Assembly: GCF_002943525.1 (NCBI RefSeq) | Contig: NZ_CP025394.1 | Location: forward strand, 7,393,001-7,457,000 | Direction of reading: 5' to 3' | From: Kitasatospora sp. MMS16-BH015 | Lineage (GTDB): Bacteria; Actinomycetota; Actinomycetes; Streptomycetales; Streptomycetaceae | DNA: 64,000 nt | Part shown: piece after piece, positions 21,497 to 23,977 of the stretch | How positions within the stretch are numbered: position 1 is the stretch's first letter | Layout: each line of letters starts with the position of its first letter | Made by a program: the position numbers and the translations under genes | Notes under the pieces: model-generated | The model's database searches: none | What the model was told of the DNA's origin: nothing | The model's input: only the letters and a program-made list of their open reading frames with translations

Positions 21497-21826
21497 TCAG
21501 GCCAGCTGCTCCAGCTTGCCGGTGTGCAGCTCGCCGACCCGGCCGCCCTCGCCCTCGTACGTCCAGAACGCGCGCACCGTCATCTCGTTCAGGTCCATCA
21601 GGTGGCTCACCGTGATGCCGCCCGCCTCCGTCCAGCTGACGAAGTACAGCTCGGGGCCGACCTGGGCCACGTGCAGCGCCACGTCCTCCCACTGGCCGGC
21701 CGACTCGCCGAGGCCCTCCCAGCGGAGCCGGGTGCCGTCGGCGGAGTAGGCGTTGCGGAAGGCCGCGCCGTTGTCGACCTGGAACAGGTAGGTGTGTCCG
21801 GCGAAGCCGGGCAGGGGCGCGGTCAT
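21497..21826 (-). CDS. MoaF-like lipocalin-fold protein
   Basis: 109-residue small beta protein. The pattern GHTYLFQVDNG at the N-terminus, ELYFVSWTEAGGITVSHLMDL in the middle and a final GELHTGKLE strand match MoaF-related single-domain proteins, which bind small molecules in a lipocalin-like barrel. No molybdenum-cofactor genes are nearby, so no such role is implied. Alone on the minus strand. Confidence 0.6.
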   Translation of the reverse strand: MTAPLPGFAGHTYLFQVDNGAAFRNAYSADGTRLRWEGLGESAGQWEDVALHVAQVGPELYFVSWTEAGGITVSHLMDLNEMTVRAFWTYEGEGGRVGELHTGKLEQLA

Positions 21827-21939
21827 CTGCGGGGTGTCTCCGTCTCGGGCGGTGGCGGCCTGCGCCGGTGTGGTCGGACGCAGGCCACCAACTTATCCGA
21901 ACCGGCGGTGTGAGGTGCGTCGCTTCGCCATCGAACTCC

Positions 21940-21969
21940 TTGGCCGGGCTCCGACGAGCTGCGTACCTT
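21940..21969 (+). promoter_or_regulatory. Candidate promoter for the riboswitch-GH16 transcript
   Basis: TTGGCC (21940-21945), an 18-base spacer and TACCTT (21964-21969) resemble a housekeeping sigma site. Transcription would start near 21976, just at the 5' side of the riboswitch. Confidence 0.4.
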
Positions 21970-21974
21970 TCACA

Positions 21975-22205
21975 GGTCGTCCGCCTCCAGCGGACCCTGC
22001 CGCCGGGACGCCGAATCCCACCCACCCGACGGCCGGTACCCGAGCACAGAGAAGAGCGGGCGGGAGCGGGGGAACCAGGTAAGTCGCCGTATCCCCCTGC
22101 CCCGCTGCCAGCGGGCGCCGCCGGGCCGGCTAGGGGTGAAGCCGCTCCCACACGCGGCCGGGCTACCCGTGTGCCCGAACCCGACAGCTCACCTCGCAGG
22201 CGTTC
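21975..22205 (+). promoter_or_regulatory. c-di-AMP riboswitch (ydaO/yuaA type)
   Basis: The leader holds the conserved blocks of the ydaO-yuaA riboswitch in order: GCCGAATCC (from 22010), GGGGGAACCAGG (22068-22079), GGCTAGGGGTGAAGCC (22128-22143) and the near-invariant 3' block CCCGAACCCGACAGCTCACC (22174-22193) followed by TCGCAGG. It ends about 15 bases before the GH16 start codon. In actinomycetes this element senses cyclic di-AMP and turns off cell-wall hydrolase genes when the ligand is high. The identification is by motif recall; a covariance-model search would settle the ends. Confidence 0.88.
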
Positions 22206-22220
22206 ACAGGGCTGACCACC

Positions 22221-23411
22221 ATGCGCATATCCATCACCCCTGCCCGCTTGGCCGCCGTGGCCGGCACCGCCGCCCTCGTGGCCGTCCCGCTGGCCGGCCA
22301 GGCCCAGGCCGCCGTCGGCGTCTCCCCGGACCGGCTGACCCCGACCGCGCTGACGGCGGGCCGGGCCGGCACCGCCTCGCTGACGGTGCACTCCACCTCC
22401 TGCTTCACCGCCAAGACCCTCGGCGTCGGCGTCCGCGACGCCGCCGGCCAGAACCTGGACTTCCCCGGCTCCGCCTCGAACGTGCGGATCTGCCCCGGCG
22501 GAGTCTCGATCACCACCGGCGCCCGCGCCCTCCCGGCCGGCAGCTACACCGAGTTCGGCTTCTGGCAGGACCTGTCCGGCGGCTGGCACAACCTGCCCGC
22601 CCGCACCCTCACCGTGTCGGGCGCCACCGTGGCCCCGACCCCCACGCCCACCCCGACGCCCACCCCGGCTCCCGCGCCCACGCCCACCCCCAGCCCGACC
22701 CCCACGCCGTCCACCGGCTCGCCCGTCCCGGGCAAGCAGCTGACCTGGTCGGACGAGTTCAACGGCCCGATCGGCTGGGGCTCGCGCTGGGTCGGCGACA
22801 AGACCAGCGCCTACCGCTACGGCAACCACAACCCGGACGACAACAAGCTCGACTGGCTGGCGCCGAACAACGTGAGCGTGGCCGGCGGCGTGGCCACCTT
22901 CACCGCCACCCCCTCCAGCCACACCCTGGAGAACGGCAGGCAGGCCTGGGACACCGGCTTCCTCACCACCGAGGGCTCGACCGAGGGCTTCCAGGTGAAG
23001 ACCGGCGACTACGCCGAGACCCGGGTCAAGCTCTCCGACGGCCTCGGCGCCTGGCCCGCGCTCTGGACCTGGAAGAACGGCAACGGGGAGATCGACTCCT
23101 TCGAGTACCACCCCGACAACCCGAACCTGCTGGAGCTCACCAACCACGTGAAGTCCGGCCAGAAGTACTACACCGACGCCAGCGCCATCGCCAAGGACCA
23201 GTGGGTCACCGTCGGCACCTACTACGGCGCCAACTCGGTGGACTGGTACGTCAACGGGGTCAAGGTCTTCTCGGACCAGACCGGGGTGGGCGCCGACTGG
23301 TCGGCCTACCTCAACCTCAACCTCTCCGTCGGGGCCGGGGAGTACCACCCCGGCCCGTCCGGCTCGGCGCCGCTGACCATGGCCGCCGACTACGTGCGGG
23401 TCTACCGCTGA
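22221..23411 (+). CDS. Secreted glycoside hydrolase family 16-like protein
   Basis: 396-residue exported enzyme. Signal peptide (residues 1-30, cleavage near AQAA), an N-terminal beta domain with one Cys pair (residues ~31-135), a Thr-Pro repeat linker (about residues 137-168), then a GH16 beta-jelly-roll domain starting LTWSDEFNG. The catalytic ExDxxE motif is intact: E290-I-D292-S-F-E295 in GEIDSFEYH. Substrates of GH16 are beta-1,3/1,4 glucans or related polymers. The c-di-AMP riboswitch directly upstream suggests a role in cell-wall or surface-glycan remodelling. Only a weak ribosome site (CAGGG) is seen before the ATG. Confidence 0.85.
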   Translation: MRISITPARLAAVAGTAALVAVPLAGQAQAAVGVSPDRLTPTALTAGRAGTASLTVHSTSCFTAKTLGVGVRDAAGQNLDFPGSASNVRICPGGVSITTGARALPAGSYTEFGFWQDLSGGWHNLPARTLTVSGATVAPTPTPTPTPTPAPAPTPTPSPTPTPSTGSPVPGKQLTWSDEFNGPIGWGSRWVGDKTSAYRYGNHNPDDNKLDWLAPNNVSVAGGVATFTATPSSHTLENGRQAWDTGFLTTEGSTEGFQVKTGDYAETRVKLSDGLGAWPALWTWKNGNGEIDSFEYHPDNPNLLELTNHVKSGQKYYTDASAIAKDQWVTVGTYYGANSVDWYVNGVKVFSDQTGVGADWSAYLNLNLSVGAGEYHPGPSGSAPLTMAADYVRVYR

Positions 23412-23414
23412 CCG

Positions 23415-23876
23415 TCAGCTCACCCGCAGGGTGAACGGCGTGGTGTTGTTGCCGGGGTGCCGGTCGTCCGCGCTGATCACCCGGACGTGCCCTTGGGTCA
23501 CCGTGCCCGGGGGCACGCTCGCACCCGCCTCCACCGGGACGAGGGCGGTGGCGGTGCGGCCCTGGGCGAGGCCTGGCCCGAAGGTGCAGCTCACCAGGAG
23601 CGGGGTGGTGGTGCAGCCGGCCGGGAAGGTCGGGGGCAGCAGGGTGAACCCGGCCGGCACCTCCACCTCCAGCGTGAACGGGGAGGCCGTGGTGGCCGGC
23701 CCGTCGTTGGCGACGAAGGCGTGCACCACCGTCTGCCCGCCGGGGGCCACCGCATCAGGATCGATCCTGACCACTTGGAGGTCGGAGTTCGAGGGCAGCG
23801 CCTGCGCCCCCGCAGGGCCGGCGCCGAGCGCCGCCAGGGCCAGCGCCGCCGCTGCCGCCATCGCCAGACGGACCAT
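23415..23876 (-). CDS. Secreted DUF11/CARDB-like single-domain protein
   Basis: 153-residue exported protein: signal peptide with an Ala/Leu-rich core ending near AGAQA, then one Ig-like beta domain (LQVVRIDPDAVAPGGQTVVHAFVANDGPATTASPFTLEVEVPAGFTL..., ending HPGNNTTPFTLRV) of the DUF11 type found in surface proteins. Two cysteines may form a disulfide. ATG at 23876 has a GAAAGGTG site; a GTG at 23885 is the alternative start. Convergent with the GH16 gene, three bases apart. Confidence 0.7.
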   Translation of the reverse strand: MVRLAMAAAAALALAALGAGPAGAQALPSNSDLQVVRIDPDAVAPGGQTVVHAFVANDGPATTASPFTLEVEVPAGFTLLPPTFPAGCTTTPLLVSCTFGPGLAQGRTATALVPVEAGASVPPGTVTQGHVRVISADDRHPGNNTTPFTLRVS

Positions 23877-23977
23877 GCCGTTCACCTTTCACTTCCAGCA
23901 CCCGATCGACTACCCAGTGTAGCGGCGTAGGCTGGTTCGTGTCCGGTTTTTTCCGTGGACCGGTGGAGGTGGGCGAC

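Follow-up and report, generated by a model that had tools for sequence, protein, structure and literature searches.

Organization of the locus

A gene for a secreted protein with a GH16 glycosidase domain was located in the window (the whole 64 kb stretch of DNA that was analysed). It is preceded by a leader with a c-di-AMP (ydaO/yuaA) aptamer and, further upstream, by a predicted promoter with a Crp-like box. The features are as follows.

21909-21924, +: Crp-like box TGTGAGGTGCGTCGCT, with 2 mismatches to TGTGA-N6-TCACA, centred at about -60; putative Crp-binding site
21940-21969, +: predicted promoter, from the leader alignment; -35 TTGGCC (21940-21945), 18-base spacer, -10 TACCTT (TAnnnT, 21964-21969)
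22005-22214, +: complete c-di-AMP (ydaO/yuaA) aptamer and ribosome-binding region, streptomycete form
22005-22018, +: conserved block of the P1 5' strand, GGGACGCCGAATCC
22007-22012, +: P1 5' strand GACGCC, pairing with 22199-22204; outermost pair G.U
22016-22023, +: P2 5' strand TCCCACCC, pairing with 22058-22065 with one A.C mismatch; covarying helix 2
22058-22065, +: P2 3' strand GGGCGGGA, pairing with 22016-22023
22062-22076, +: conserved block GGGAGCGGGGGAACC, 0 mismatches to the clade pattern
22066-22071, +: helix 3 5' strand GCGGGG, within the block GAGCGGGGGAACC, pairing with CCTCGC at 22192-22197
22132-22141, +: conserved core AGGGGTGAAG
22174-22203, +: 3' conserved block CCCGAACCCGACAGCTCACCTCGCAGGCGT, 0 mismatches to the clade pattern
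22199-22204, +: P1 3' strand GGCGTT, pairing with 22007-22012
22207-22211, +: probable ribosome-binding site CAGGG, read from the sequence, 9 bases before the ATG
22221-23411, +: secreted two-domain GH16 protein of 396 aa; ATG start and signal peptide assigned by visual inspection
23088-23105, +: catalytic motif E290-I-D292-S-F-E295 (EIDSFE) of the GH16 domain

Identification of the riboswitch

A preliminary description of this DNA had placed a c-di-AMP riboswitch at 21940-22230, before the GH16 gene, and had proposed a covariance-model search as a check. The Rfam scan of the whole 64 kb returned RF00379 (c-di-AMP, ydaO/yuaA) within that interval, at 22075-22218 (+), with a score of 44.1 bits (E 5.5e-07) against a gathering score of 38 bits, and no match besides RF00379. 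The 5' half of this alignment is out of register, a later AGCGGG being taken as the 5' strand of helix 3. The slip is attributed to the long P2 hairpin found in this clade, with which the Rfam alignment begins too late in the window.

A second covariance model (R1, 197 model positions) was built from 28 related leaders, with the window excluded. Its input consisted of 27 leaders before genes of the window's GH16 kind and one (L118) before a second GH16 kind, while same-species duplicates (L023, L097-L099, L101, L104, L105 and L120) and the split leader L018 were left out. Using R1, the full element was recognised at 22005-22214 (+) with 128.2 bits (E 1.8e-29) over model positions 1-197 of 197; the runner-up site within the 64 kb reached only 12 bits. 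The riboswitch is borne out by both models. The end of the interval first given was right to within a few bases, but its start lay about 65 bases before the RNA structure, at a position (21940) which coincides with the predicted -35 box.

That all conserved ydaO blocks are present and in order was likewise upheld by pattern search, in which the two long blocks were found without a mismatch. Based on the block patterns, RNAalifold and R1, the order of the blocks matches the class and the architecture is closed by P1; in the core, GGGGTGA is unchanged in 29/29 aligned leaders. In the leaders of the relatives, GGGACGCCGA(A/G)TCC, which varies slightly, is followed by a P2 hairpin that is long and variable and by GAGCGGGGGAACC or GAGCGGGGGACCC. 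After a variable stretch come GGGGTGAAG and CCGAACCCGACAGCTCACCTCGCAGGCGTC, then the ribosome-binding site (GAGG) and the start codon, and the window shows the same layout from 22005 on. The aptamer lies in the 5' leader directly upstream of the ATG, and the same genome has a gene with a DAC (c-di-AMP synthase) domain. Judged by its sequence and structure score, the leader (approximately 21977-22220) belongs to the c-di-AMP (ydaO/yuaA) riboswitches, a known class and not a new one, and would be expected to bind that ligand. As the Rfam alignment can be out of register for switches of the streptomycete form, decay should not be concluded from a low score alone.

Secondary structure

RNAalifold, applied to 29 leaders, recovered P1, P2, helix 3 and the inner hairpins unprompted. 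P1 corresponds to consensus helix 1, with five pairs and 100% of the cells paired in these leaders. Over the 37 pairs of the consensus fold, standard pairs were observed in 98.6% of cells, compared with 32-47% when the partner was slid. Double-change cells numbered 28 against 9.0 in shuffles (0/500 as high), and 26 of them were in P2; the count of pairs with double changes (four) was not above that in shuffles (82/500 as high). The support for the predicted structure is mostly sequence conservation, as one would expect when related species share a core that binds a ligand.

Promoter region and Crp-like box

The sigma-70 consensus scan of 21800-22500 identified no promoter, which was instead read from the leader alignment. 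TTGNNN, 17-19 bases and TAnnnT were placed, without a shuffle control, in 32/32 leaders (the 29 aligned ones, L018, and the aptamer-less L024 and L031), and P1 or its remnant starts at +23 to +33. The predicted transcription start in the window is at about 21977.

A Crp-like box with at most 2 mismatches was present in 32/32 leaders, against a mean of 1.1 and a maximum of 5 of 32 in dinucleotide shuffles, the rows being related and the counts not independent. Its centre is at -59 to -61 in 19 leaders, at -45 in nine and at -49 to -56 in four. The window has what characterizes sites of the Crp regulon, a TGTGA-N6-TCACA-like box at a promoter, here with 2 mismatches. RpfA expression is reported to be under Crp in passages of PMC5693915, and with this predicted box the GH16 gene appears to carry both kinds of control reported for rpfA (Crp and a c-di-AMP switch).

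Boxes with at most one mismatch were counted 76 times in the same genome against 18 times in the reversed control, and 11 were perfect. One of the 11, TGTGATCGCCATCACA at G000:C1:7786771-7786786 (L004), is located just upstream of a riboswitch-controlled Rpf-LysM-NlpC gene.

The GH16 protein

The downstream gene had been described as encoding a secreted GH16 enzyme, and matches to solved structures, the fold, the catalytic residues and the signal peptide agree with this assignment. The protein is composed of a signal peptide (about residues 1-30), an Ig-like beta-sandwich (31-135), a Pro/Thr linker and the GH16 domain (about 165-396). Residues 31-135 were confidently predicted to form an Ig-like sandwich (pLDDT 96.1), and this N-terminal domain gave no Pfam match. 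A glycan-binding function for it was considered and dropped, the best structural match being the Wzt carbohydrate-binding domain with Z 9.4, barely above nanobodies with Z 8.7.

Residues 162-396 of the predicted model matched Pyrococcus LamA (2vy0) with Z 26.0 and rmsd 2.7 over 226 aligned residues, and have the beta jelly-roll of GH16. The EIDSFE motif was aligned with GEIDIME of 2vy0 and has the form ExDxxE. The next fold matches were lichenases, laminarinases, agarases, porphyranases and carrageenases at Z 22.9-25.2; since many GH16 activities are matched at this level, the fold does not name the substrate. Based on sequence (phmmer), the nearest solved relatives are laminarinases and other GH16 glucanases. 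The protein shares the GH16 fold with the laminarinases and lichenases 2vy0, 3azx and 3i4i (Z 24-26) and the ExDxxE motif with 2vy0, but it differs from all three in its low identity (16-28%), a shortened segment before the motif, the N-terminal Ig-like domain and a score below the Pfam GH16 cut-off.

The Pfam search of the window protein did not reach the PF00722 cut-off and gave just Laminin_G_3, itself below cut-off. The same was seen with relatives, L019 being assigned to no family and L037 scoring 20.4 bits against a GH16 cut-off of 22. We read the PF00722 miss as a limit of the profile, which does not define the family in CAZy; assignment to GH16 is indicated by the fold, the phmmer matches and the motif.

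Conservation of the switch-GH16 pairing

Beyond what the preliminary description had seen, the pairing of switch and GH16 gene is widely kept, a second GH16 kind lies behind the switch, and the Crp-like promoter is conserved. For the window protein, 79 loci were returned, and 38 of these (L018-L055, best segment at least 56% identical) were taken as the near set; 37 are titled Kitasatospora, Streptacidiphilus or Streptomyces and one Saccharothrix. A switch was identified upstream of the GH16 gene in 25/38 near loci, 22 by RF00379 and three (L018, L022, L023) by R1. The other 13 have no switch, so the GH16 enzyme can do without it. No switch was detected with R1 in the 41 distant GH16 loci (L056-L096; best 15.9 bits, E 0.045). 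The reading frame that follows the switch is split in two cases, L054 and G005 (L106).

Within the genus, 11 of 13 genomes have a switch-linked gene of the window's GH16 kind, ten by Rfam and G010 by R1 alone; the two without are G004, with only a partial protein match, and G011. Eight genomes of other genera contained no such GH16 gene (six weak matches with E 1e-6 or worse, two none). Neither of the two close GH16 paralogues in the window's own genome (1641801 and 8181868) is preceded by a switch. When presence of the switch was mapped on a tree of 53 GH16 domains it was clustered, requiring 7 changes (at least 3 forced by well-supported branches) compared with 17.7 in shuffles; this tree, midpoint-rooted and with long-branch warnings, would fit an early gain of the switch followed by several losses.

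The genes adjacent to the pair were compared in 24 loci with 3 kb flanks. Malate synthase was kept in 18, IclR in 18, DUF11 in 17 and MoaF-like in 15, and among the other neighbours in the window ABM was matched in four, TetR in one, and VOC and SDR in none. The DUF11-like protein is secreted and is encoded convergently beside the GH16 gene (window 23415-23885, -); it is also kept in the aptamer-less L024 and L031. The leaders of L024 (2921-2993) and L031 retain the Crp-like box, promoter and ribosome-binding region and have lost the aptamer core, and are natural switch-less versions; L024 additionally retains both P1 strands. In L018 (2784-2955, Kitasatospora sp. MAP5-34) a MITE-like insert with 30-base inverted arms, 93% complementary and 112 bases apart, lies in a hairpin loop of the aptamer. 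R1 still recognises the two parts of the aptamer that flank it, with 73.4 and 29.2 bits.

Switch-linked genes in the genus

The census covered 13 genomes (the window's own and G001-G012) and gave 84 Rfam matches, one of them below cut-off. The downstream genes were 69 peptidoglycan hydrolases (63 by Pfam, and six in the window's own genome by reading), 12 GH16 and two CAP genes, and one gene that was not scanned. Pfam was run on 66 of the 67 switch-linked genes fetched, one with X in its translation being left out, and identified Rpf (27), NlpC/P60 (22), M23 (20), SLT (4), CAP (2) and GH16 (1); by motif, Rpf and NlpC/P60 occur together in 10 proteins. In the preliminary description, resuscitation factors and peptidoglycan hydrolases had been named as known targets of this switch in actinomycetes. 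The census agrees with this, as do passages of PMC10117811, PMC11481543 and PMC8079986, where the genes under c-di-AMP riboswitches in Streptomyces are said to encode hydrolases of the cell wall and secreted enzymes related to them.

Six further switches in the window's own genome lie, by reading, before genes of the M23, NlpC/P60 and Rpf types. With R1, four of them scored 105-130 bits and the other two were weak matches of 23-24 bits; relative to Rfam, R1 extended four of the six upstream by 23-33 bases.

Ten of the 12 GH16 cases are of the window's kind and two are of the second kind, which scores above the PF00722 cut-off (L118 577-1992, -; L175 178-1719, +). Both share the N-terminal domain with the window protein (approximately 60% identical), so the switch and this domain are combined with two different catalytic domains. 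A further class of target, not evidently peptidoglycan hydrolases, is formed by two secreted proteins with a CAP domain (L147 186-1118, +; L151 179-1141, +), whose genes follow c-di-AMP switches.

Mode of action

The distance from the 3' end of P1 to the start codon is 11-17 bases in 29/29 leaders, and the terminator scan of 21800-22500 found no terminator-like site. Both observations argue for regulation close to the start of translation, with expression OFF at high c-di-AMP; we infer both the direction and the place of action. Passages of PMC11481543 describe the ydaO-type switch as an off-acting element. In passages of PMC8079986, a block of the ribosome-binding site and translation-initiation control in S. 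coelicolor are credited to earlier work, and the same is assumed for S. lividans.

Folding calculations at 74% G+C are weak evidence, and their results agree with this mode for the window and not for the leader set. In the window alone, the unpaired fraction at the ribosome-binding site dropped from 0.59 to 0.04 when the aptamer was forced; over all 29 leaders the site was barely altered (mean unpaired 0.40 free, 0.36 forced). The mean P1 probability was 0.61 without 30 coding bases (above 0.5 in 19/29 leaders) and 0.00 when they were added (above 0.5 in 0/29). It also varied with the type of coding bases: 0.003 for native, 0.09 for shuffled, 0.18 for random at 74% G+C and 0.54 for poly-A. The coding-start segment TCACCCCT (22234-22241) is complementary to the core segment AGGGGTGA (22132-22139) over 8 bases, with a predicted pairing of 0.85-0.98; it was considered as an alternative structure but is not claimed as one, the partner being different in the five other leaders compared.

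Transcription attenuation, Rho-dependent or RNase-coupled, is a credible alternative to a block of translation initiation, though one we would not put first. According to passages of PMC10117811, c-di-AMP binding to the rpfA leader, which carries this switch, leads to premature transcription termination, and rpfA transcripts are up five-fold in a S. venezuelae disA mutant. The rpf-type switches of the window's own genome are likewise close to the start codon (by reading), and the forced aptamer does not, on average, hide the ribosome-binding site. On the other hand, 11-17 bases and no terminator-like site leave no room for an intrinsic terminator, although Rho may be used, and the work cited in PMC8079986 is for translation-initiation control in S. 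coelicolor.

Proposed role of the GH16 enzyme

As a whole, the locus is likely to be one in which a Crp-type promoter and a c-di-AMP OFF riboswitch jointly control a single secreted GH16 glycosidase. cAMP-Crp would bind the Crp-like box and activate transcription at germination or fresh growth. At high c-di-AMP the aptamer would fold, with P1 closing just 5' of the ribosome-binding site, and expression would be lowered. When c-di-AMP falls, the enzyme would be produced together with the hydrolases of the Rpf, NlpC/P60 and M23 types that bear the same switch, and it may then trim a beta-glucan-like polymer during remodelling of the wall or surface. From its being kept with GH16 in many related species, the switch probably places under c-di-AMP, besides peptidoglycan hydrolases, an enzyme acting on some other polysaccharide; as the preliminary description proposed, this may be another surface polymer.

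The arrangement is like that of the RF00379 switches of Streptomyces rpfA and cell wall hydrolase genes in the aptamer class, the site just before the start codon and the secreted target, but the target here is a GH16 enzyme of glucanase type and not a peptidoglycan hydrolase. A literature search combining the c-di-AMP/ydaO riboswitch with glucanase, glycoside hydrolase, beta-glucan or Kitasatospora gave no GH16 target by title and start of abstract, the gene lists of Nelson 2013, Block 2010, Haiser 2009 and St-Onge and Elliot 2017 lying outside this comparison. That a sister genus has retained a GH16 target would mean either that these bacteria have a glucan-like surface polymer which is remodelled under the same programme or that this programme extends to foraging for glycans. 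With one enzyme and one leader, the locus is a simple handle for assay.

GH16 enzymes of the ExoK/ExsH type act on the producer's own exopolysaccharide. Like these, the window enzyme would be secreted and directed at a polymer which the cell makes itself and which is here hypothetical. A more far-reaching reading is that two messengers form one circuit in Kitasatospora and Streptacidiphilus (cAMP-Crp on, c-di-AMP riboswitch off). In addition to peptidoglycan hydrolases, this circuit would drive a dedicated GH16 that cuts a self-made beta-glucan of the spore or hyphal surface, and c-di-AMP would thereby coordinate the remodelling of two different surface polymers at germination or turgor change; we offer this reading tentatively, as falling a little short of an even chance.

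The enzyme might instead attack foreign beta-glucan of fungi or plants, for nutrition or as an antifungal, with the switch merely tying it to the growth state. Its nearest solved relatives, laminarinases and other GH16 glucanases, and the lichenases among the fold matches would suit such a substrate. Against it, the switch in the 13 genomes otherwise serves almost only peptidoglycan hydrolases (69/84), and the promoter has a Crp-like box, in keeping with the Crp control reported for rpfA; we regard foreign glucan as possible and the less probable substrate.

Some details of the window do speak against joint control by Crp and c-di-AMP: the outer G.U pair of P1, the A.C mismatch in P2 and a ribosome-binding site weaker than the GAGG of the 28 other leaders. 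Together with a Rfam score that is the lowest of seven in the genome, and with L024 and L031, in which the aptamer could be lost while promoter and gene stay, they might indicate a decaying remnant that no longer switches. This is improbable, as the low score reflects the slipped alignment, and in the proper register the element reaches 128.2 bits with both long blocks mismatch-free. A catalytically dead GH16 domain that serves as a glycan-binding protein is very improbable: pseudo-GH16 proteins occur in actinobacteria (Rv0315, title of 4wzf), but E290, D292 and E295 are intact here and invariant in 30/30 aligned sequences, down to 29% identity.
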